Shown here: positions 40,891-53,196 of the stretch, in pieces | How the letters are laid out: each line of letters starts with the position of its first letter | Position numbering within the stretch: position 1 is the stretch's first letter | Assembly: GCF_004138135.1 (NCBI RefSeq) | Contig: NZ_RYFD01000005.1 | Coordinates: forward strand, 1 to 64,000 | Direction: 5' to 3' | DNA: 64,000 bases | DNA from: Candidatus Oscillochloris fontis | Lineage (GTDB): Bacteria > Chloroflexota > Chloroflexia > Chloroflexales > Chloroflexaceae | Notes under the pieces: model-generated | Seen by the model: the letters and a program-made list of their open reading frames with translations, nothing else | What the model was told of the DNA's origin: nothing | Databases searched by the model: none | Translations under genes and position numbers: made by a program

Positions 40891-40981
40891 TCGCATACTA
40901 TACCACAGAGCCGCCCTAGCGCCTATGCTATAATGCGTGTATTCGATTATTAGGAACAACCCCACCCCTATAATACCGCTT

Positions 40982-42289
40982 ATGGAAGATTTCGAGCAGC
41001 TTGATCACTACCAACTCTTAGGGATCAGCCGCAACGCTTCAGACGACGAGATTAAACAAGCCTATCGCCAACAGATGCGGCGCTATCATCCCGACCGCGT
41101 CGCCGCAGCTAACCCCGCAGAACAGGCATATGCGACCCAACGGGCGCTCCGTATCAACGCAGCCTACCAGACGCTGAGCGACCGCAGCGAACGCTTGATC
41201 TACAATCGTAGTCTGAGTGGCCATGTGCCATCCCCACCCCGCCCGCAACAACCGGCGCACCCTCGCGATCATCAAGCCGAGCTCTATGAACGCGCCCACG
41301 AGCACCTTGATGCGGGGCGAACCATGCAGGCGGTGGCGACACTGCGCGAGTTGCAACAACTCAATCCCTTCTACCGCGATAGTGCAGTTCTATTGGTGCA
41401 GGCTGAGGCGCAGATGAACCAGCGCCCCGTTGCCCCCGCACCGATCCAGCGCACCACACCAGCCCTGCCCAGCCGTCGCACCTTAATTGTTGGTGGCGCG
41501 GGGAGCCTGTTGTTGGCACTCTTTGGCGGCGTCACATGGTGGATGCGGCGCAACCCGGCATCGGCCTCACCGGCCATCCCCACCGAGGCCCAACCCGCTG
41601 CCGGGGTGGCAGTGGCGACAGCAACAGGAACCGCGACGGCGCTCCCCTCCACCGCCACCAGCGCCCCCAGTCCCACCGCCACCCGCACCCCTAGCCCCAG
41701 CCCCAGCCCCGCACCGACCGCCACCCGCACCCCCACGCCAACCCCCGTTGCCGAAACGGGGCGGGTGATCTACAGCGAGGATTTCCGGGGCAGTGGCTGG
41801 CCCAGTAGTTCCGGTTCGGGCTGGAGTGTTGGAGCAGGCGGCGGAGCCTACACCATCACCTCGCAGGCCGGTGCGGGCAACATCTGGGTCTACCGCACCA
41901 GCCCCGGCGGAGCCGAGATGCTGATGGGCGTGGATGTCACCGTACAGGGCGGCGAAGCCGGGCTGATCGTGCGCTTCACCGACCGCGACAACTACCTCGC
42001 CTTTGTGGTCGATCCAGCAGCCGCCAGTTTCCGGCTCGAACTCCGCCGTGCGGGTCGCGCCAGCACCCTACTGGCCGACGAACACCCCGCCATTCTTAGC
42101 GGCACCAACCGCCTCGCCGCCCGCCTTGAGGACGAAGAGATCATCCTGCGCATCAACGGCCAGCAGGTCGCCGAACTCACCCTAAGCGACCCACCGCCCA
42201 GCCAGCGTTACGGCCTCGTGGCGGTCAGTGGAACCCGCACCTCGGTAGAGGCCACCTTTGAGGATCTACAACTGCGGGCGCTGCGGTAG
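40982..42289 (+). CDS. Membrane-anchored J-domain protein with LamG-like extracytoplasmic domain
   Basis: 435 residues. N-terminal J domain (DHYQLLGISRNASDDEIKQAYR ... YHPDR with the HPD triad), a short helical segment, one membrane segment near residue 165-185 (LIVGGAGSLLLALFGGVTWWM), a Pro/Thr/Ser-rich linker, then a beta-sandwich (VIYSEDFRGSGWP ... LIVRFTDRDNYLAFVV) like DUF1080/concanavalin folds. No G/F or zinc domain. Joins a cytoplasmic Hsp70-activating domain to an outside binding domain. Upstream are TATAAT boxes at 40929 and 40969, and no clear Shine-Dalgarno. Confidence 0.82.
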   Translation: MEDFEQLDHYQLLGISRNASDDEIKQAYRQQMRRYHPDRVAAANPAEQAYATQRALRINAAYQTLSDRSERLIYNRSLSGHVPSPPRPQQPAHPRDHQAELYERAHEHLDAGRTMQAVATLRELQQLNPFYRDSAVLLVQAEAQMNQRPVAPAPIQRTTPALPSRRTLIVGGAGSLLLALFGGVTWWMRRNPASASPAIPTEAQPAAGVAVATATGTATALPSTATSAPSPTATRTPSPSPSPAPTATRTPTPTPVAETGRVIYSEDFRGSGWPSSSGSGWSVGAGGGAYTITSQAGAGNIWVYRTSPGGAEMLMGVDVTVQGGEAGLIVRFTDRDNYLAFVVDPAAASFRLELRRAGRASTLLADEHPAILSGTNRLAARLEDEEIILRINGQQVAELTLSDPPPSQRYGLVAVSGTRTSVEATFEDLQLRALR

Positions 42290-42458: not shown

Positions 42459-43481
42459 ATGAACACTGGCATCTCAACCTATCACCTCGGCTATTCCGTC
42501 ATTGATCAAAGCGATTTTATTGTATCAACATCTCAGCAAACATATTCTGTTGTCTCTATGTTCTCAGGGTGTGGAGGTATGGATCTGGGATTCAGAGGGG
42601 GATTTAGATTCCTTGGTACTCATTATGAAAGATTGCCTTTTGAAATCATCTGGGCAAATGAAATCAATCAAGCTGCATGTCGGACGTATCGCAAGAATAT
42701 TGACGAAAGAATTATCTGTGAGAACATCTGGGATGTTTTAGAGGATATACCGCAAGATATTGATGTCTTAATTGGTGGTTTCCCATGTCAAGACATTTCA
42801 ATCAATGGTAAAGGGGCAGGTGTTGATGGTAAAAGAAGCGGCTTATACCGAGCAATGGTAGAAGCGATCAGGATTGCAAAACCAAAAATATTTGTGGCCG
42901 AGAATGTCAAAGGTCTCTTAATGCGTCACAATAGAGCATCGCTCGAAAAGATCTTAGAGGACTTTGGTGCTCTTGGGTATAAAGTTTCATACAAACTGTA
43001 TCATGCAGCGAACTATGGTGTACCTCAGAGTCGGGAACGGGTTTTTATTGTTGGAATATCAGATCCTCGTAGAGAATTCATCCCACCTAAAGAACATATA
43101 TCGAGTGAAAATTGGATAACCGCCCAAGAAGCTATTGGTGATCTAGAGTTACTAGAGAGTAATCCGGCTATCAATCATATTTGGAGTCTTGCGAATCGCA
43201 GTCCAGATCAAGGTAATCGCCAACTTGAGGCATGCAAACCCGGATACACAATACGAGCAGAGTGTCACGGGAATATCCAGTACCACTACAAACTGCCCCG
43301 CCGGATCTCAATGCGTGAGGCGGCACGGATACAATCATTTCCTGATGATTTTATCTTTGATGCGAAACTACGCGAGACAGAACGACAAATAGGGAATGCG
43401 GTTCCACCCGTACTCGCATGGCACATGGCACAAGCTGTACGTTCCTATCTTGATGATGGGGAGTATTCCCATGGATCATAA
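42459..43481 (+). CDS. DNA (cytosine-5) methyltransferase of a type II system
   Basis: 340 residues. Motif I FSGCGGMDLGFRGGF, motif IV GGFPCQDIS with the catalytic Cys, motif VI ENVKGLL, motif VIII QSRERVFIVG, motif IX/X RQIGNAVPPVLAWHMA. The short variable region implies a compact target site. The DNA is clearly more AT-rich than flanking genes (AAA, GAT, ATT codons), a sign of recent transfer. It overlaps the next gene by 11 bp. Target sequence not predictable from the sequence alone. Confidence 0.92.
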   Translation: MNTGISTYHLGYSVIDQSDFIVSTSQQTYSVVSMFSGCGGMDLGFRGGFRFLGTHYERLPFEIIWANEINQAACRTYRKNIDERIICENIWDVLEDIPQDIDVLIGGFPCQDISINGKGAGVDGKRSGLYRAMVEAIRIAKPKIFVAENVKGLLMRHNRASLEKILEDFGALGYKVSYKLYHAANYGVPQSRERVFIVGISDPRREFIPPKEHISSENWITAQEAIGDLELLESNPAINHIWSLANRSPDQGNRQLEACKPGYTIRAECHGNIQYHYKLPRRISMREAARIQSFPDDFIFDAKLRETERQIGNAVPPVLAWHMAQAVRSYLDDGEYSHGS

Positions 43482-44475
43482 GGAATTTGAAGATATTCTT
43501 GATCAAGTTGTCTTAATTCTCAATACTGATATTACCACAAAAAGCGTTTTTTCCAACGCCAAAGAGTTTGAAAATCGAGTCAGAGAAGTCATTAGTACAC
43601 TCGTTGCTCCAAAAGGGATCAGTGTAAGTTTTAACCCCCATCCGCATGTTTTTCCTGATATTGCAGTCGAACAATTTGGTGTTGAAGTTAAATTTACTCT
43701 AAATAATACTTGGCGTAGCGTAGCTAATAGTATTATTGAGTCAACGCGCCATGCAGATGTTTTGTATATCTATATCGTTTTTGGGAAAATGGGTGGCACA
43801 CCTGAAGTTAAATGGGCAAAATATGATGATAGTGTGGTTCATGTGCGAACAACTCATGTGCCACGATTTGAAGTTGAAATCAACCCCAAACGATCTCTGT
43901 TCCAGCAAATGGGTGTGTCATATGCAGAATTTAGTAATCTCTCCATTAAAGAGAAGATGGAATATATCCGTCAATATGCACGATCAAGGCTAGAGCCGGG
44001 AGAGCGTTTATGGTGGCTAGAAGAAAGTTCGCAATCAGAACACTCATTACCCCTAGAAGTAAAACTCTATACCAGTCTCTCATCAGATGAGAAGCGTAAA
44101 CTACGTGCAGAAGCAGCTATTCTTTCACCTAAAGTTGTTGGTCCATCTCGATCTAGAAATAAATATGATGATGCAGTTCTGTATATGCTTACCTATCACG
44201 GGATTGTATGTCACCAAGCAAGAGATCTCTTCTCCGCCGGAAGTGTTGCTTTGCGCGGAGATGAGAAACGAGGTGGTATATACATCCAACGCGCATTGCA
44301 GGATATAGAATCTGAGATGTACGCTGCCGCTATGCGCTTAGAAGATGCACTGTTTGTTGAGTATTGGGGACAAACCTATCCTCCCGACCAACGCATTGCG
44401 ATTTGGTTGCAAATGGCCGATCTGTATGCAAAGGATTGGGTACCTTCCCAGGTTCTTTTCCAGGATCAGGGTTAG
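43471..44475 (+). CDS. Putative PD-(D/E)XK restriction endonuclease
   Basis: 334 residues from the ATG at 43471 (GGGAG 7 bp upstream). The residues PDIAVEQFGVEVKFT around 60-74 fit the PD...ExK nuclease core. I do not recognise a named enzyme family. The overlap with the methyltransferase, equal AT-richness and same strand support a restriction partner. C-terminal half (LEDALFVEYWGQTYPPDQRIAIWLQMADLYAKDWVPS) is helical and unassigned. An alternative is a nicking or non-cognate nuclease. Confidence 0.72.
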   Translation: MDHKEFEDILDQVVLILNTDITTKSVFSNAKEFENRVREVISTLVAPKGISVSFNPHPHVFPDIAVEQFGVEVKFTLNNTWRSVANSIIESTRHADVLYIYIVFGKMGGTPEVKWAKYDDSVVHVRTTHVPRFEVEINPKRSLFQQMGVSYAEFSNLSIKEKMEYIRQYARSRLEPGERLWWLEESSQSEHSLPLEVKLYTSLSSDEKRKLRAEAAILSPKVVGPSRSRNKYDDAVLYMLTYHGIVCHQARDLFSAGSVALRGDEKRGGIYIQRALQDIESEMYAAAMRLEDALFVEYWGQTYPPDQRIAIWLQMADLYAKDWVPSQVLFQDQG

Positions 44476-44524: not shown

Positions 44525-47290
44525 ATGTCTGAACTAGAAGCCAGGATTGCCCAACTCGAAGCCGAATTGGCCGCCCTCCGTACTGCTCAAGTCCAACAGA
44601 AGATGGAAGCTGAAACGATTACCCATGCCCAACAGACGGTGGTGCAGGGCGATCAGCATATCCACGCGGCTCCGCTTGATCCGGCAGTGGCGCAGGCGGA
44701 AACGGCGCTGCGCACCTACCTGCGGCGTAGTGTCAATGAGTGTAATGCGTTGCCACTCGGCCAGATTGATCGCAACGATAGCCCCGAAGTTCGCCCGCTG
44801 ATGCTTGCGCAGCTCTATATTGGCCTCAATACGACCGAGCAGGTGCAAGATCCTGAACGAGCAGCGCGTCCGGATCGTTCCGCTACCCGCCCGCTTAGTG
44901 TGCTGGAAGCTCTCAGCCGCCAGGAGCGCCCGCGTACCATCCTGCTGGGTGTACCCGGCAGCGGCAAGAGTACCTTCGTCAGCCATCTGGCGCTCTGTTT
45001 GGCTCAGGCAGAACTCAATCCTACCGATGATGTCGCTACGCTGCCGGGGTGGACGTTGGGCCAACGCTTGCCGATCCGGGTGATCCTGCGCGACCTCGCG
45101 GCTTTTGCCCCGCTGGAAGAGTCTCCGCGTGGGACGGTGCGCATCTTTGAGCAGTTCCTGGCGACGCTGTTGGCCGATGCGGGTTGTGCGGCGGCATTGC
45201 CGTTGCTGACCGATGCGCTTAAGGAGGGTTCGGCACTGCTCTTGCTCGATGGCTTCGATGAGGTAGTGGGTGACTCCATCCTCAAACGGGTGGCGGAGAT
45301 GATCCGTGATTTGGATCGTAGCTACCAGTCGCCGATCTTGGTTACGTGTCGTGTTCTCGATTATAACGAAGAGCAACAACGCCAATTAGCGGGTTTTGCG
45401 ACGTTGACCCTGGCCGAGTTGGACGATGGCCAGATCGAGCAGTTTGTGGGCGATTGGTACCGCGAATTGGCCGCGAGTGGCCGCCGCCCTGCTGCTCAGG
45501 CGGCGCTGGATGCCCAAGAACTGCGCGATGCACTGGCGAGCCGCGATGAGTTGCGCGATTTGGCGCGTACCCCCCTCTTGCTGACGGTGATGGCGCTGGT
45601 GCATGCCTTTCGCGGTACGCTGCCCGATGCGCGGGCTTTGCTCTATTATGAATGTATTGACCTCCTGCTGCTGCGTTGGCGCCAGCCTCGCGGCGAACTC
45701 GACCTGCTCGAACGCTTCAATTTGCCCCAGTTCCGTAGTTCTGATCTGCTGGTGCTGATGGCCGAATTGGGTTTTATGGCCCATACCCAGGCTGAACGAA
45801 GCAATGCCGCCCCACATCAGCCTGCTGATCTCGATGAGACGCAAGTGATGGCGATCTTGGCGGCCGGGTTTGAACCTTTTGACGTGTCTCGCCGGTATGA
45901 GTTGGCGCATATGATGCTCAATGCGCTGACCTTCGGTAATGGCCTATTGCTCAAACGCGGGGATAAGCTCTATACCTTTGCCCACCGCACCTTCCAGGAG
46001 TTCCTGGCGGGCTACCACCTCAAGCGCCAGCGCGACTACCGCAAGCTCTGTTTGGAACGCGCAGGCCAGATCCATTGGCACGAGAGCCTCAGCCTTATGG
46101 TCAGTTTCCAGGTGCTTCAGGATCAGGAGTTGGAGAAGCCCCTCGTGCTGGCCGAAGCGCTGCTGGCGCGTAGCCCACTCGAACAGGTGCTGGGCGGTGA
46201 ATGTCTGAACCTGATTAGTTCGGAGCGCGCGAAGGGCTACGACCCCGAACTGCTCAAGCTGCCCAATGGCCTCTGGCCACGCACCCGCACAATGTTGCTC
46301 GACCTCCTCACCAAAGGGGTAGCCCCGGAAGTCCCGGTGGCCCTGCGCGCCCGTGCCGGGCGTGCCTTGGGCCACCTCTGCTATGGTAGCCTCGCCAGCC
46401 TGTCGCGGCCTGCCACTGCTATCGAGCTACCCATACCCGACCCACGCCTCCCGCTGGCGCTGCTCGGTCTGCCGGGGCAGCAGGATGCGGCGTGGCTGCA
46501 AGCGCTGGAGACCTACTGGCGTCCGCTTGCACCCGGCCCCTTCTGGTATGGTGATGATGACGATACACCACTGGTATCCATGCCCTTTACCGAGGGTGGC
46601 AAGATCGCCCGCTTCCCGATTACCAATGCCGACTATGCCCGTTTTGTAGCCGCTGGTGGCTACCAGCAACCCCAATGGTGGCGCGAGGTGGGGTGGCGCT
46701 TCCTCCAGCCGGGTGGGCATCCTTATGATGATCAAGATGTCATGATCACCGAACCTCGCTACTGGCACAACTCGCGCTATACCAACCCACTCCAACCAGT
46801 AGTGGGGGTCTCGTGGTACGAAGCCGCCGCCTACTGTCGCTGGCTCAGCGCTTGCGGCCACCAGCAGGGCTGGCTGCCGCAGCATGCGATCCTGCGCCTG
46901 CCTACCTGGGTCGAGTGGCAACGCGCCGCACGCGGCCAAGATCAACGTCGCTACCCGTGGGGCAATACCGAGCCAACCCCCGAACATGCCAACTACGACC
47001 AGACCGGACTAGGTCTCCCCAACCCGGTAGGCTGTTTTGCGGCTGGTGCAGCCGCATGTGGAGCCGAAGAGATGGCGGGTAATGTGTTAGAATGGACGGC
47101 AAGCGCACACGCGGAGCCAACCGCAGGCCAAGATCGAAAAGACTTTACACCAAGCGAAGATGTCATTCTATCGGGTAGTGCTTTCTGGTGGGGAGCGGAA
47201 CAATTGTGCTGCGGTTCTCGCGTCAGGTTGGACCCGAACGGCGGGAACGACGACAGGTCATTTCGGGTGTTTTGGTCCCCGCGCTCATAG
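44525..47290 (+). CDS. NACHT NTPase fused to FGE-sulfatase (C-type lectin fold) domain
   Basis: 921 residues from the ATG at 44525. A coiled coil (residues 1-30, LEARIAQLEAELAAL) and a VVQGDQHIH strand are followed by a NACHT module: Walker A GVPGSGKST, Walker B LLLLDGFDEV, sensor-like VTCRVLDY, then helical repeats (about 350-680). A C-terminal FGE-sulfatase domain (about 690-921) shows PITNADYARFVAAGGY, VVGVSWYEAAAYCRWL, LPTWVEWQRAARG, YPWGN and GNVLEWTAS. The catalytic Cys pair of true FGE is not evident, so it is probably a binding or sensor domain. STAND NTPases with such ends act in conflict systems. It begins 49 bp after the nuclease. Its last 190 bp show different codon use. Confidence 0.88.
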   Translation: MSELEARIAQLEAELAALRTAQVQQKMEAETITHAQQTVVQGDQHIHAAPLDPAVAQAETALRTYLRRSVNECNALPLGQIDRNDSPEVRPLMLAQLYIGLNTTEQVQDPERAARPDRSATRPLSVLEALSRQERPRTILLGVPGSGKSTFVSHLALCLAQAELNPTDDVATLPGWTLGQRLPIRVILRDLAAFAPLEESPRGTVRIFEQFLATLLADAGCAAALPLLTDALKEGSALLLLDGFDEVVGDSILKRVAEMIRDLDRSYQSPILVTCRVLDYNEEQQRQLAGFATLTLAELDDGQIEQFVGDWYRELAASGRRPAAQAALDAQELRDALASRDELRDLARTPLLLTVMALVHAFRGTLPDARALLYYECIDLLLLRWRQPRGELDLLERFNLPQFRSSDLLVLMAELGFMAHTQAERSNAAPHQPADLDETQVMAILAAGFEPFDVSRRYELAHMMLNALTFGNGLLLKRGDKLYTFAHRTFQEFLAGYHLKRQRDYRKLCLERAGQIHWHESLSLMVSFQVLQDQELEKPLVLAEALLARSPLEQVLGGECLNLISSERAKGYDPELLKLPNGLWPRTRTMLLDLLTKGVAPEVPVALRARAGRALGHLCYGSLASLSRPATAIELPIPDPRLPLALLGLPGQQDAAWLQALETYWRPLAPGPFWYGDDDDTPLVSMPFTEGGKIARFPITNADYARFVAAGGYQQPQWWREVGWRFLQPGGHPYDDQDVMITEPRYWHNSRYTNPLQPVVGVSWYEAAAYCRWLSACGHQQGWLPQHAILRLPTWVEWQRAARGQDQRRYPWGNTEPTPEHANYDQTGLGLPNPVGCFAAGAAACGAEEMAGNVLEWTASAHAEPTAGQDRKDFTPSEDVILSGSAFWWGAEQLCCGSRVRLDPNGGNDDRSFRVFWSPRS
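47183..47272 (+). other. Candidate variable region in the FGE/CLec domain
   Basis: The last 35 residues occupy the place where FGE-family proteins have GGSW ... RSAxR ... NxIGFRV, but carry an odd set (FWWGAEQLCC, SRVRLDPNGGNDD, SFRVF). This is the position diversified by retroelements in CLec-fold proteins. Eleven of 24 codons are NNC, which is compatible with AAC-derived positions but not decisive in a GC-rich genome. No template repeat or reverse transcriptase lies within the window. Confidence 0.3.
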
Positions 47291-47322
47291 GGTAGTGGGT
47301 AGGCAATAACGAGGAGTAGTGC

Positions 47323-47550
47323 GTGCAATTCGATAAGGCTCTGCCCATCACGGTTGCCTGTCAATATTGCCATAATCAAGGAGCAGAAAGTGGGCTAGTC
47401 GAAGCATTTGCTGAGATCTGCCATTTTCTCGCGGATAATCCACAGAGCCTTTCTTGGCGTTCCAAGCAACATCTACCATCAGTATTTACGATCTCTGGGT
47501 TAAATGTTCTAGCTCAACTGTATCGCTTCTTCTCTTCTCGATTGAGCTAA
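47323..47550 (+). CDS. Small hypothetical protein or gene remnant
   Basis: 75 residues, GTG at 47323 with GAGGAG 6 bp upstream. Unrecognised; contains CQYCHNQG (two Cys, one His) and a helical C-terminus. Moderate GC unlike the NACHT gene. Its end overlaps the convergent methyltransferase by 42 bp. It could be a remnant of a nuclease once paired with that methyltransferase. Confidence 0.35.
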   Translation: MQFDKALPITVACQYCHNQGAESGLVEAFAEICHFLADNPQSLSWRSKQHLPSVFTISGLNVLAQLYRFFSSRLS

Positions 47551-48909
47551 AAACCCCGCCATCCACTCGGCATCACTGGTAGCACGGTAGCGAGAATAGC
47601 GAAATCCGGGTATCGTGCGTACTGCTTCACCGGCAATCAATTGTTGTAACAACCTTCCAATGGCTGTACCGAGGCTTATCGGTACGGCATTGCCTATTTG
47701 CCGGTATTGCTCAAGAATTGGCCCCGCAAATTGCCAGTGATCGGGAAATTCTTGTAAACGCCGATACTCTTCCACAGAGAGCGGGCGATCCTCTTCAGGA
47801 TGCGCAAGATCTGTGGCGGGCATGGCCGGATGCGTTACTAGTGTTGGGGCAGGTTTATCCCAGTGGAGTCGCCGCAAAAAGCCCGTCTTTCCGCCACCCG
47901 CAGTATAGGCGTTCCCCAGTGCCTCTGGTTGCAGATCTTGTGGCAGGGCACGCCAATTTTGGCCGGCTGATAACATGCGATAGAACCTCAGCCGCTTCTC
48001 AGGAAAGTTGATGTGGTGGTGGGTCGTTATATCGTGTGTTGCTTCCCGAAAGGTTCTCCAACGTGGTAATCCGTATTCTCCATGTTCAGTATGGGTGGGC
48101 GTGAGAAATGGTGGCTTCGTTCCATCACGCGCACAGATCATAACGACACGTTCTCGTATTTGGGGGCTGCCAAAATGAGCAGCATTATAGAGATTAAAAG
48201 AATAGCCGTATCCTGCGGCTTGAATAAGGTTTAGAATAAAATAGAGTGCCCCACCGGGCAGTTCATCAAAGGATAGTGGTGAGTATTGTGGCCCCCGCAA
48301 ATGATGTGGTCGGTGTGTGAGGGGGCTGGAGAGCAGGCCGCGCACATTCTCTATGACAAGGAATTTGGGGCGGATCGCCAAAGCAAGATCAAGGTAGGTC
48401 AGAAATACATTGCCGCGTTCATCACGGAAGCCATTGCGTTTACCTGCGGTGCTAAATGCTTGGCATGGCGGCCCGCCGATGATCAGGTCTACATCGTCTG
48501 TTTTGGATAATCCTGCAAAATCGAGGACTTCCTGCGCCGAATAGGTGGTAATATCGCCAATCAACGCCATATCGGGTCTGTTTAGTGTAATAGTTTGGCG
48601 GGAATATTTGTCAATCTCACACGCCAAGCGCACATCAATTCCTGATTTCTCTAGCCCTATGTCAAGCCCCATCGCACCAGAGAAGAAGCTGAGCGCAATA
48701 GGTTTGCTCTGTTTGGGTATGTATGATGGGTGATCTTCGGCAATGGTATGATTAATCGATTGGTATTGCATGAGGCTGCTTGACTCAATGAACCAACTCG
48801 TACCTAGTTTGCGGGCAGTAAGCGTACCTTCACGGCAGAGTGTTCGTACCCGTTGTTCACTCACACCAAGTATTGCCGCTGCATCGCTGATTGTTATCTC
48901 GGTACTCAT
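47509..48909 (-). CDS. Orphan DNA (cytosine-5) methyltransferase with N-terminal HTH domain
   Basis: 466 residues from the ATG at 48909 (AGGGA upstream). Residues 1-50 are a MerR/excisionase-type helix-turn-helix (ISDAAAILGVSEQRVRTLCREGTLTARKLGTSWFIE). The methyltransferase follows: motif I FFSGAMGLDIGLEKSG, motif IV GGPPCQAFS, motif VI ENVRGLL, motif VIII QIRERVVMI, a target region, and YRQIGNAVPISLG. No restriction gene is adjacent. The HTH may autoregulate or tether the enzyme. Divergent from the CHAT gene with 140 bp between them. Confidence 0.9.
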   Translation of the reverse strand: MSTEITISDAAAILGVSEQRVRTLCREGTLTARKLGTSWFIESSSLMQYQSINHTIAEDHPSYIPKQSKPIALSFFSGAMGLDIGLEKSGIDVRLACEIDKYSRQTITLNRPDMALIGDITTYSAQEVLDFAGLSKTDDVDLIIGGPPCQAFSTAGKRNGFRDERGNVFLTYLDLALAIRPKFLVIENVRGLLSSPLTHRPHHLRGPQYSPLSFDELPGGALYFILNLIQAAGYGYSFNLYNAAHFGSPQIRERVVMICARDGTKPPFLTPTHTEHGEYGLPRWRTFREATHDITTHHHINFPEKRLRFYRMLSAGQNWRALPQDLQPEALGNAYTAGGGKTGFLRRLHWDKPAPTLVTHPAMPATDLAHPEEDRPLSVEEYRRLQEFPDHWQFAGPILEQYRQIGNAVPISLGTAIGRLLQQLIAGEAVRTIPGFRYSRYRATSDAEWMAGFLAQSRREEAIQLS

Positions 48910-49049
48910 AAAAAGTTTCCCTGACGAAACAAAAACCAAGTACCTTGATTGTACTATAAGATTGCTACCCCGACAATTAAGGTCTCAAAACGCATACCCT
49001 GAGAGCGCGGGCTTCTTGTCCGTACTTCTAGAAGAAAGGAACCATCCCT

Positions 49050-50363
49050 ATGCCCAAGCAGAAGATTACGGGTGATTCGATAGAAGATGCACATCAGGAG
49101 GTACGTGGGGCAAGCGAGCCGGTGCAGCAGAAGATTGCTGGGCGGCGGGTGCGTGGGGTTACTCAGGTTGCGATTGGGCCAACGCAGCCTACGCCGCCGC
49201 CCGCTACTGCACTACCCTCCGCGCCACTGGAGGTGCGCCTTACGTGCCTCGCCACCACTGATGGTGTACGCATCATCTGGGAGGCGGGGCTGATTGGGCA
49301 GCGTGTGAGCCGCTTTGTGCCGCCATTTGTAGCGGCGGATCTGGAGTTGGTGCTGCGGGCGTTGGATCTTCTTCAGTACCCTGATTCCGGCTTTACTGGC
49401 ACTGAAGAGGCGCGCTTGGCCGCCCTCGGTATTCCATTGCTCAACGCGACCACCGCACGGGTGGTGGGGCAACAACTCTACCAGGCACTCACCGCCGATC
49501 CCCAGGCGGCCCAAGCACTCGGTACGCTGCGTGATGCCGCCGCGCATCAGGGGCTGGCACTCAGTCTGCATCTGCACCTCCCCACCCATGAACCTGGCTT
49601 GCTCGGTTTGCCCTGGGAGTTGCTCTGGCATCCCCACGAACCAACCCCGCTCCTGCTCAGTCGCGGGCAGGCTCATCACCTCACGCGCCACCTCGATCTG
49701 GCGCAGGCATCCCCCGCCCCGCACCCTCCGACTGACCCGCTGCGGCTGCTGGCGATTGCGCCCCAGGCGAATCTCGATCCAGCTATGCATGCCGCCGAAG
49801 AGGCCGCCCGCCTAGATGCATGGCGACCTCTGCTGGATCAGGGCCGGGTTGTTCTGCTGCCTACGCTCAGCCCGGCAACTCGTGTGGCACTCAGTGAGAC
49901 ACTACGCCGCGTCGGGCGAGTGGATGTGTTGCACTATATCGGCCATGGTGGGCTGCGTGAGCAGGGGGTGTTGCTGCTGGATAGCCCCGCTGGTCGGCTT
50001 GATCCTACGCCGATCAGTCAGTTGGCTCCGCTCTTGGCCCAGGCTCAGGTGCGCCTCGTGGTGCTAACCGCATGCCAGAGTGGGATGGTGCGCCAGCAGG
50101 TAGCGCCGGTTGGCGTGTTGAGCGGGGTGGCTCCGGCACTGATCGCCCAGGGCGTGCCAGCGGTGGTAGCGATGCAACATACGGTGCGTCAGCAGGACGC
50201 CAATCGGGCTACGCGCATCATCTATGAGCAACTGGTTGCCGGGGTGAGCCTCGCGGCGGCAGTGGCAGCGGCACGCATGGCGCTCTATACCGAGGCCCCC
50301 GATGGGGTCGCGTGGTATGTGCCGACGCTCTATGTTGGCCCCCAACCGAGCGTGGTACAATAG
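49050..50363 (+). CDS. CHAT domain caspase-like protein
   Basis: 437 residues. N-terminal 60 residues are polar and low-complexity; about 65-190 is an uncharacterised alpha/beta region; about 190-430 is CHAT. The catalytic His is in VDVLHYIGHGGL and the Cys in VVLTACQSG, both intact, followed by AQGVPAVVAMQHTV. CHAT proteases act in bacterial programmed death and defence when paired with sensors. No TPR repeats are fused, so a partner sensor is needed; the NACHT-FGE protein nearby is a candidate. AAAGGAA precedes the start. Confidence 0.88.
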   Translation: MPKQKITGDSIEDAHQEVRGASEPVQQKIAGRRVRGVTQVAIGPTQPTPPPATALPSAPLEVRLTCLATTDGVRIIWEAGLIGQRVSRFVPPFVAADLELVLRALDLLQYPDSGFTGTEEARLAALGIPLLNATTARVVGQQLYQALTADPQAAQALGTLRDAAAHQGLALSLHLHLPTHEPGLLGLPWELLWHPHEPTPLLLSRGQAHHLTRHLDLAQASPAPHPPTDPLRLLAIAPQANLDPAMHAAEEAARLDAWRPLLDQGRVVLLPTLSPATRVALSETLRRVGRVDVLHYIGHGGLREQGVLLLDSPAGRLDPTPISQLAPLLAQAQVRLVVLTACQSGMVRQQVAPVGVLSGVAPALIAQGVPAVVAMQHTVRQQDANRATRIIYEQLVAGVSLAAAVAAARMALYTEAPDGVAWYVPTLYVGPQPSVVQ

Positions 50364-50397: not shown

Positions 50398-53196
50398 ATG
50401 CCGGCCGCAAACCCCTTTCATGGCCCCAATGCGGGCTATCTGATCGAGTTGTACGAGCGCTATTTGGCCGACTCCAGCGCGGTTGATGCTGAGACTCGCG
50501 CCTTCTTTGCTACTTGGACGCCGCCGCCCGATGATCCCGATGTGGTCGCGCTAGTGGCTGCTACTGCCCAGTCTCCCCTCGATGCGACCCGCATTGTGGG
50601 CGCGGCACGCCTCATCCGCTACATCCGCGAGCTTGGCCATACCGCCGCTCGGATCGATCCGCTTGGCTCGCCGCCGCCGAGTGACCCCGGTTTGGAGATG
50701 GTCAACCACGGCGTCACCAAGGCTGATCTGGCGCAGTTGCCCGCTGAGATTGTGCGTGGCCCGATCTCGCGCACGACGCCTAATGCGGCCGAGGGGGTCG
50801 AGCGCTTGCGTCAGGTCTACTCTGGCTCGATTGGCTATGAGACCGATCATATCCAGAATTTTGAGGAGCGTGAGTGGATTCGCCGCATGGCTGAGAGCCG
50901 CTTCTTCTTTGCGGATTTTGATACTGACCGCCAGCGTGAGTTGCTGGATCGCCTCAGTGAGGTGGAGGGTTTTGAGCGCTTCTTGCATAAGACGCTCCCT
51001 GGTCAGAAGCGTTTCTCGATTGAGGGTACCGATATGGCGGTGCCGGTGATTGATGCGATCATTCGGAATGCCGCTGCCGCAGGTACTCGTGAGGTGGTGA
51101 TCGGCATGGCCCATCGTGGCCGCCTGAATGTGTTGGCGCATATTCTGGGTAAGCCATACTCCTCAATTCTGAGTGAGTTCCATACGCCTGATTATAGTAA
51201 AGATACCTATACCGGCTGGACTGGCGATGTCAAGTATCATCTGGGGGCGCGTAAGGCGTACCGCGAGAGTGGTGTCACTGAGATGCCGATTACGCTGGCA
51301 CCCAACCCTAGCCACCTGGAGTTCGTCAACCCGGTGATTGTCGGGCGCGCCCGCGCTGCCCAGGAGAAGCGTACCCGCCCCGGCTACCCCCAGCGTGATG
51401 AGAAGGAGTCGCTGGCGATTCTGGTGCATGGCGATGCGGCTTTTCCTGGCCAGGGTATCGTAGCTGAGACGCTCAATCTCTCCCGGATTCAGGGCTACCA
51501 TATCGGCGGTACGATCCATATCATTCTAAATAATCAGATCGGTTTTACTACCAACTATCAGGATTCACGTAGTACCCATTATGCGTCGGATCTGGCACGC
51601 GGCTTTGAGATTCCGATTGTGCATGTCAATGCCGATGAGCCGGAGGCGTGTATTGCGGTTGCGCGGATGGCCTGGGCCTACCGCGAGAAGTTCCAGAAGG
51701 ATTTCCTGATCGATCTGGTGGGCTATCGGCGTTGGGGCCATAACGAGGGCGATGAGCCGGAGTTTACCCAGCCGCGTATGTATGAGAAGATCCGCAACCA
51801 CCCCACGGTGCGCGAGATCTGGGCGCGTGAGTTGGAACGGCGCGGCGTGATTACCTCTGCTGAGGCACAGGGCATGTTTGATGAGGTGCAGAGCCGCTTG
51901 CAACAGGCATTCGATCTGGTGCGCGAGCGTCAACGCCTCAGTACGACCATGCCGCCTGCGCCACCAAAGGCCAACGATAAGCCCAAGCCGCGCCCCACCG
52001 TCTATGCCAAGCCGCTTACGCCCCACCGCCTGATCGAGCTGAATGAGGCGCTGCTCGACCGCCCCGATGAGTTTACGCCGCATCCTAAGCTGGAGCGGAT
52101 GCTGCAACGCCGCCGCCAGGCCATCCACGACCCCGCCGGGATTGAGTGGGCACACGCCGAGGCGCTGGCGTTTGCCGCCATCCTCGCCGATGGTACCCCC
52201 ATTCGCCTGAGTGGCCAGGATAGTGAGCGCGGTACCTTCAGCCAGCGCCACTTGGTGCTGCACGATGTGATGACGGGCGAGCGTTTTATGCCGCTGCACC
52301 ACCTTCCCCAGGCGCGTGCGGCCTTCGCGGTCTATAATAGCCCGCTCTCCGAAGCGGCGGTGCTGGCCTTTGAGTATGGCTACAGCACCCACGCTCCCGG
52401 CACTATGGTGCTCTGGGAAGCCCAGTTTGGCGATTTTGCCAATGGTGCCCAGGTGATCATTGATCAGTTTATCGTCTCGGGGCGCGCCAAGTGGGGCCAA
52501 GATCCAGCCCTCGTGCTGCTCTTGCCCCACGGCTATGAGGGCCAGGGGCCGGAGCATTCGAGTGCGCGCCTGGAGCGCTTCTTGCAACTCGCCGCCACCG
52601 ATAATATCCGTGTCGCCAACTGTACCACCGCAGCTCAGTACTACCACCTGCTGCGCTACCAGGCCGCCTCGCTCTCCGGCTACCCGCGCCCGCTCGTGGT
52701 GCTCACGCCTAAGAGTCTGCTGCGCAATCCGCGTGCTAACTCGTCACTCAGCGACCTGAGCGACGAGACCTTCCAGCCAGTCCTCACCTTGGGCAGTGAC
52801 GCGCCTAACCCCGATCAGGTTACGCGGCTAATACTGGGAACCGGCAAGGTCACGGTTGATCTGCTGGCCAGTGGCGAGCTTGAACGTGCCGGAGGTAGCG
52901 TCGATCTGCTGCGGGTCGAACTGCTCTACCCCTTCCCAGAGGAAGAACTGCTCGCGCTGTTGGCCCGCTACCCCAACCTGCACGAGGTGGTCTGGATGCA
53001 GGAGGAGCCGCAGAACATGGGCGCGTGGAGCTACATTGCGCCCCGCCTACGCCAGATCCTGCCCGCCGAGGTCTCGTTGCACTACGTCGGGCGTGGTGAG
53101 TCGGCGAGCCCAGCCGAGGGGCTGCATAGCCAACATACACTCGAACAGAACCGCATCATTCGCACTGCCGTGCAGGGTGTGTCGGTTATTGTGTGA
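50398..53196 (+). CDS. sucA: 2-Oxoglutarate dehydrogenase E1 component
   Basis: 932 residues. N-terminal E1o segment (NPFHGPNAGYLIELYERYLADSSAVD), thiamine-diphosphate core (HGDAAFPGQGIVAETLNLS, NNQIGFTT, YRRWGHNEGDEPEFTQP) and transketolase-like C-terminal part (RLSGQDSERGTFSQRH). TCA-cycle enzyme. The last codons and the TGA stop lie inside a 17-bp-arm hairpin. The E2 gene follows after two repeats. Confidence 0.95.
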   Translation: MPAANPFHGPNAGYLIELYERYLADSSAVDAETRAFFATWTPPPDDPDVVALVAATAQSPLDATRIVGAARLIRYIRELGHTAARIDPLGSPPPSDPGLEMVNHGVTKADLAQLPAEIVRGPISRTTPNAAEGVERLRQVYSGSIGYETDHIQNFEEREWIRRMAESRFFFADFDTDRQRELLDRLSEVEGFERFLHKTLPGQKRFSIEGTDMAVPVIDAIIRNAAAAGTREVVIGMAHRGRLNVLAHILGKPYSSILSEFHTPDYSKDTYTGWTGDVKYHLGARKAYRESGVTEMPITLAPNPSHLEFVNPVIVGRARAAQEKRTRPGYPQRDEKESLAILVHGDAAFPGQGIVAETLNLSRIQGYHIGGTIHIILNNQIGFTTNYQDSRSTHYASDLARGFEIPIVHVNADEPEACIAVARMAWAYREKFQKDFLIDLVGYRRWGHNEGDEPEFTQPRMYEKIRNHPTVREIWARELERRGVITSAEAQGMFDEVQSRLQQAFDLVRERQRLSTTMPPAPPKANDKPKPRPTVYAKPLTPHRLIELNEALLDRPDEFTPHPKLERMLQRRRQAIHDPAGIEWAHAEALAFAAILADGTPIRLSGQDSERGTFSQRHLVLHDVMTGERFMPLHHLPQARAAFAVYNSPLSEAAVLAFEYGYSTHAPGTMVLWEAQFGDFANGAQVIIDQFIVSGRAKWGQDPALVLLLPHGYEGQGPEHSSARLERFLQLAATDNIRVANCTTAAQYYHLLRYQAASLSGYPRPLVVLTPKSLLRNPRANSSLSDLSDETFQPVLTLGSDAPNPDQVTRLILGTGKVTVDLLASGELERAGGSVDLLRVELLYPFPEEELLALLARYPNLHEVVWMQEEPQNMGAWSYIAPRLRQILPAEVSLHYVGRGESASPAEGLHSQHTLEQNRIIRTAVQGVSVIV

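Follow-up and report, generated by a model that had tools for sequence, protein, structure and literature searches.

The window analysed here, a 64,000-nucleotide stretch of contig C121 (NZ_RYFD01000005.1, positions 1 to 64,000) of Candidatus Oscillochloris fontis, whose genome comprises 4.46 Mb in 139 contigs, contains two forward-strand genes that appear to form a sensor-effector pair: a NACHT-FGE protein (44525..47290), that is, an NLR-type NTPase with a C-terminal FGE/C-type-lectin domain as judged from Pfam and fold matches, and a CHAT protease (49050..50363). The 1759 bp between them agree with the 1.8 kb given by a first-pass annotation, which had proposed that the NACHT-FGE protein senses an invader and triggers the CHAT protease in an island shared with two DNA methyltransferases. 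Four features add to that description: the imprint of a diversity-generating retroelement (DGR), a short tag shared by sensor and protease, the exchange of effectors in Candidatus Viridilinea, and a shortened CHAT N-terminus.

The open reading frame (ORF) of the NACHT-FGE protein is open from 44345, with the ATG at 44525 (MSELEAR) as the likely start, and ends at 47290. Pfam places the NACHT domain at residues 198-373 (E=4e-9) and an FGE-sulfatase domain at residues 729-945 (E=1e-34). Walker A (GVPGSGKST, 44948..44974, +) and Walker B (LLLLDGFDE, 45236..45262, +) are both present, as is characteristic of NLR/STAND proteins; judged by these motifs the nucleotide-switch domain is intact, and the earlier description of an intact NACHT protein with an FGE C-terminus stands. 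In Foldseek, the predicted model retrieved NLRC4/NLRP3/NOD2 and the FGE-like fold of EgtB, and the sequence itself matches the DGR variable protein of T. denticola (2y3c, E=2e-5). The downstream protein has the CHAT fold (PF12770, E=4e-24), with Csx29/TPR-CHAT, separase and the SAVED-CHAT filament as best PDB folds. It carries the conserved His in LHYIGHG (49929-49949, +) and Cys in LTACQSG (50064-50084, +) and gave no TPR match in Pfam, which bears out the first description on both points.

A survey of homologue neighbourhoods in Chloroflexota, which that annotation had suggested, found the two genes repeatedly linked, within Chloroflexales. In 12 other genomes, all Chloroflexales (G001, G002, G004, G005, G006, G008, G009, G015, G016, G018, G023 and G024), a CHAT gene follows a NACHT-FGE gene on the same strand, and in G019 the FGE end lies directly upstream of CHAT. 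The genome of O. fontis itself holds three more pairs, on contigs C29, C128 and C125, the C125 partner being a divergent CHAT-like protein missed by Pfam. The nearest named relatives found are likewise Chloroflexales: Chloroflexales bacterium ZM16-3, Oscillochloris and Candidatus Viridilinea.

Could two independent genes simply have become neighbours in an accessory hotspot between the dnaJ-like gene (40937-42289) and sucA (50398-53196) that border the island? Both families are abundant in the genome, with 18 NACHT and 27 Pfam-CHAT loci, and G005, a close relative, has the dnaJ-like gene and sucA in the same order with other genes between them. However, the pair recurs in the 12 other genomes at other places, and three of the eight NACHT-FGE genes of O. 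fontis are followed within 2 kb by a Pfam-CHAT gene in the same orientation, with a chance probability of p=1e-5 against the 27 Pfam-CHAT loci in a test that assumes independent genes. Distances among sensors also track those among their effectors (14 pairs, Mantel r=0.71, p=2e-4). We therefore reject chance proximity, which now appears very improbable. The NACHT-FGE/CHAT cluster of G005 sits on another contig, indicating that the pair is accessory and kept together at differing locations.

Two arrangements of the pair can be distinguished. Type A comprises the window, G004 and G005, with a long CHAT protein bearing an N-terminal extension in the latter two. Type B is a tight operon followed by an Amidase_2 gene, with an FtsZ-like gene in the only operon that was annotated. 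In the type B loci L096, L099, L100, L102, L104 and L092 (on C29), NACHT-FGE and CHAT are followed by a protein of ~610-690 residues, which in L100 is the Amidase_2 protein, succeeded by an FtsZ/tubulin-family protein and one without a Pfam match; a connection of the module with the cell wall is conceivable.

The adenine-specific divergence of its members identifies the NACHT-FGE family of the window sensor as a DGR target. Template and variable repeat differ at 18 of 25 template adenines and 0 of 65 other sites on contig C98 of O. fontis (L125), at 14 of 23 and 0 of 47 in each of two sensor genes of L107, and at 8 to 14 of 22 and 0 of 38 across three sensor genes of L094; in L095, where 14 of 20 adenine sites differ, one change elsewhere is the sole exception to the adenine-only pattern. 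A reverse transcriptase (RT) adjoins the sensor in L093, L095, L107 and L125, and bAvd is present in L094, L095, L107 and L125. This makes L095, L107 and L125 complete DGRs with RT, Avd and a template by the FGE target, while L094 has Avd and template with a fragmentary RT.

In the window, the variable region at 47208..47278 (+) was compared with the template of L094, which belongs to a related genome and not to O. fontis. Here, 11 of 21 template-A sites are changed, every one at codon position 1 or 2, and 3 of 50 non-A sites, each at codon position 3 (p=3e-5). Queries with the window variable region and the L094 template found no template repeat for the window sensor in its own genome; they retrieved just sensor ends, namely those of the two sensor genes on C121 and C128 and one more at C128:37947. 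The DGR-type RT of the genome, on C98, accompanies its own template, and a tblastn search of the window turned up no remnant of an RT. A current DGR target is thereby ruled out for lack of a matching template; with the imprint kept, the sequence identifies the window sensor as a former target whose last variant is now fixed. The C98 locus (L125:4739-9860) is a full DGR in its own right, with a NACHT-FGE target, RT, bAvd (PF22296), a template with adenine-only mismatches and a seryl-tRNA synthetase gene alongside; no CHAT gene was found near it. Another locus, L093:700-15371, has four tandem NACHT-FGE genes with one DGR-type RT among them and a single CHAT gene last, and several sensors may share one effector there.

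What could connect such a sensor to its protease is a short motif found once in the linker preceding the NACHT domain of the sensors and in two or three tandem copies in the partner CHATs. In the window, the sensor copy (QQKMEAETITHAQQT) lies at 44594..44638 (+) and was found by a hidden Markov model (HMM) built solely on CHAT repeats; the CHAT copies lie at 49056..49109 (KQKITGDSIEDAHQEVRG) and 49125..49178 (QQKIAGRRVRGVTQVAIG), both on the plus strand. In type B CHATs, a ~19-residue motif occurs two or three times at ~23-residue spacing, C-terminal to the protease domain. Profiles were used because pairwise alignment of whole sensor and CHAT proteins is mostly uninformative for so short a motif. 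In a 4x4 within-genome matrix of single sequences, C125 alone was significant. The type B HMM, trained on CHAT copies only (type B and L095) and run over 6,497 ORFs, gave NACHT-FGE linkers among its first non-training matches, at the same pre-NACHT position and with a few short ORFs interspersed. For type A, trained on two CHAT copies each of the window, L093, L094 and L105, six NACHT-FGE entries including the window linker rank straight after the training proteins among ORFs of at least 200 residues, with weak matches (E=0.24-3.9) and two of the six entries being duplicates from a second copy of one contig. In column-shuffle profile tests on windows chosen by eye, matched types were significant (A-A p=4e-4, B-B p=2e-4) and crossed types were not (0.18 and 0.53); at the level of profiles, motif types agree within pair types. 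Adjacent NLR and effector genes with a common short motif, as in BASS pairs, are thus found in families A and B, with a weak match in the window pair itself. The Amidase_2 proteins of the type B operon showed a short partial match to the motif in one case only. AlphaFold confidence is low in the tag region and uninformative about an assembly motif, amyloid-motif Pfam models did not match the window proteins, and no adaptor-domain Pfam match was found in NACHT-FGE or CHAT, although Pfam may not cover all published EADs. On C125, the NACHT-FGE and CHAT-like proteins (L124:3-5306) have in common a glycine-rich stretch of ~60 residues at their N-termini (z=21).

The tags appear to travel with the effectors. 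The C128 pair has a sensor core with 64% identity to that of the window sensor, whereas its CHAT is just 27% identical and its linker different, which suggests that the linker goes with the effector and not with the sensor core. In Candidatus Viridilinea, a caspase gene (PF00656) lies downstream of DGR-diversified sensors, and the caspase shares a ~50-residue N-terminal tag with the C128 CHAT (z=16); a match to the caspase tag (p=0.0005) also occurs in the linker of one sensor from Viridilinea. By this comparison, effectors have been exchanged in Viridilinea while a related tag stayed. Caspases with such an N-terminal tag are encoded there near NACHT-FGE sensors, at L107:499-1941 and L147:6587-8020.

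We propose, with a probability of about two in three, that the two genes of the window encode an NLR sensor, once diversified by a DGR, and a caspase-like CHAT protease that it activates through homotypic tag assembly. The lectin-fold tip would bind a ligand, probably from an invader, and NTP-driven oligomerization of the sensor would cluster the linker motifs. These could then seed a joint assembly with the tandem CHAT motifs, comparable to fungal NWD2 with HET-S, upon which the clustered protease would turn active and the cell within the filament would be killed or arrested. In short, the sensor may turn on the protease by way of the matching tag, and the shared motif would offer a physical reason for the sensor-to-protease step of the first-pass annotation, which in this part also gains support from the recurrent linkage.

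Several points weigh against this proposal. Taken on its own, the window pair gives a weak and no more than suggestive motif match (p=0.018 and 0.05, or 0.16 when gaps are allowed); the C128 sensor linker has no significant match to its own CHAT flank (p=0.3); and the windows of the shuffle test were, as stated, chosen by eye. Invader sensing and killing are deduced from the protein families, and a prion-like nature of the motif is proposed by analogy alone. RT, Avd and template are gone from the window copy, as is the N-terminus of CHAT, and the module may therefore be decaying. Finally, in the wider collection outside Chloroflexales, ~20 of ~70 NACHT-FGE loci lie near a DGR-type RT and 1 has a CHAT gene; CHAT is thus almost never adjacent there. 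The genomic distribution accordingly marks CHAT coupling as a trait of Chloroflexales, while the association of sensor and DGR is broader.

The weak window match and the C128 linker would also suit a rival in which sensor and effector form the same pair, with the motif as a passive linker repeat and CHAT recruited via a different surface, for instance the NACHT core or the FGE domain, all the more as composition-biased linkers can resemble one another. Yet a passive repeat would hardly lead HMMs built on CHAT copies alone to the same pre-NACHT position in the partner sensors, nor explain why crossed pair types fail to match. That the C128 linker diverges along with its CHAT despite the conserved core, and that a caspase and a CHAT have a tag in common, likewise argue against it, and we regard the passive linker as unlikely.

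The island also holds genes other than the proposed pair. From the dnaJ-like gene to sucA, the order is a type II C5-methyltransferase (42459..43481, +), a type II restriction endonuclease (43471..44475, +; PADLOC REase_II PDLC03508, E=3e-124), NACHT-FGE, a 75-codon SinI-type restriction endonuclease remnant (47323..47547, +; Pfam RE_SinI, E=8e-8), a C5-methyltransferase with an N-terminal helix-turn-helix on the minus strand (47509..48939) and CHAT. Methyltransferases do flank the sensor as first described, and this proximity is what speaks for a layered island in which restriction comes first and NACHT-CHAT suicide second, as one system. Against it, GC content at third codon positions is 0.67 in NACHT-FGE and CHAT, as in the surrounding genes, whereas it is 0.35, 0.35 and 0.47 in the restriction genes (0.35 and 0.47 in the two methyltransferases); the RE_SinI match covers only profile positions 14-58 of 218, so that the nuclease is broken; and the fetched loci of relatives contain no homologues of the two methyltransferases or the intact endonuclease. 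As parts of two type II restriction systems of foreign base composition that are absent from the relatives' loci, the methyltransferases were rejected as members of the module; this part of the earlier proposal falls away, and a layered island is extremely improbable. The SinI remnant adjoins its intact methyltransferase, which makes the latter an orphaned methylase. A role of the dnaJ-like gene as a bNACHT25-style cofactor is disfavoured, as it occupies the same position in G005 without the module. MoxR ATPase, vWA and VMAP are not named among the annotated window genes, no search having been aimed at a MoxR-vWA system.

The inserted SinI-type system also touches on the state of the module, as the shortening of CHAT lies at its edge. 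The CHAT orthologues of G004 and G005 have an N-terminus longer by ~170 residues, in which membrane helices are predicted (judged by eye), and homology of the window protein to these long forms begins at 49059, just past the restriction genes. From this alignment, the N-terminus was either lost with the restriction insertion or the long form is derived. The window module might be a decaying relic, with a sensor frozen and a CHAT truncated after DGR gene loss and restriction insertion, a reading in keeping with the missing template in the genome and the broken SinI nuclease. However, neither of the long ORFs is interrupted and no motif is missing, CHAT retains its tandem tag besides the His/Cys pair, and a plausible ribosome-binding site (AGAAGAAAGGAA) precedes the ATG at 49050. 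Type B CHATs likewise lack the membrane-helix N-terminus. We consider a relic doubtful.

Finally, we would like to place the proposed pair into the context of known systems. DGR-diversified NACHT/STAND-CLec proteins of multicellular bacteria have been described as putative antigen sensors (Dore et al. 2024, PMC10907252). The proteins studied here resemble them in the central STAND/NACHT NTPase, the C-terminal FGE-type C-type-lectin domain with its variable region, the duplicated targets, the nearby protease gene and the multicellular hosts, which include filamentous Chloroflexi. The window copy differs by having no RT, Avd or template itself. In Thiohalocapsa, the NACHT targets of DGR 3 have no identified adaptor and an S8 peptidase neighbour, and DGR 6 combines EAD8 with a trypsin-like protease (PMC10907252); here, by contrast, the N-terminal extension bears a short tag that has a counterpart on the CHAT or caspase partner. 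Filamentous bacteria are also known to carry neighbouring NLR and effector genes with a common short motif, the BASS pairs, for which CHAT is named among the rarer effectors (Dyrka et al. 2020, reviewed in PMC7889193). In BASS pairs, the motif lies at the NLR N-terminus and the Bell C-terminus, whereas it occupies the pre-NACHT linker and either end of CHAT or caspase here, and the present sensor family is, unlike theirs, a DGR target. For BASS4, repeats of the motif have been reported on the effector (PMC8086366).

Among bacterial NACHT-centred, NLR-related proteins, the sensor is comparable to the antiphage bNACHT proteins (PMC12169576). Of these, bNACHT25 senses indirectly via DnaJ (PMC12169576), while the tip here is a lectin-fold domain and the dnaJ-like neighbour is a conserved flank present also without the module. 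The protease shares its CHAT fold with Craspase TPR-CHAT/Csx29 and SAVED-CHAT; unlike these, no TPR was found, and neither protein contains a SAVED or CRISPR part. In the fungal HET-S/NWD2 system, the NLR carries one motif copy and the effector two. The single copy on the sensor and tandem copies on the effector follow the same scheme, although HET-S is a membrane-targeting effector, the effector here is a protease, and no sequence relation was found. The fungal motifs are named r0 and r1/r2 (PMC8086366). By analogy, the module would combine a NACHT-lectin sensor of the DGR type (PMC10907252) with signalling in the manner of BASS or HET-S (PMC7889193, PMC8086366).

If the tag works as proposed, an effector protease and its wiring would be named for DGR-diversified NACHT-lectin sensors, and the model could be tested with two genes, combining a variable sensor, an exchangeable tag and a protease read-out. 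The exchange of CHAT for caspase on a related tag constitutes a natural experiment in modular bacterial death signalling. More tentatively, it is possible that filaments of Chloroflexales run several parallel, privately wired immune circuits, in which exchangeable short tags on hypermutated NLR sensors template the assembly of CHAT or caspase as interchangeable proteases of the caspase fold, and the tag, not the catalytic domain, defines the circuit. If true, the anticipatory recognition provided by DGRs and a prion-like transfer to apoptosis-type proteases would be joined in one bacterial system.

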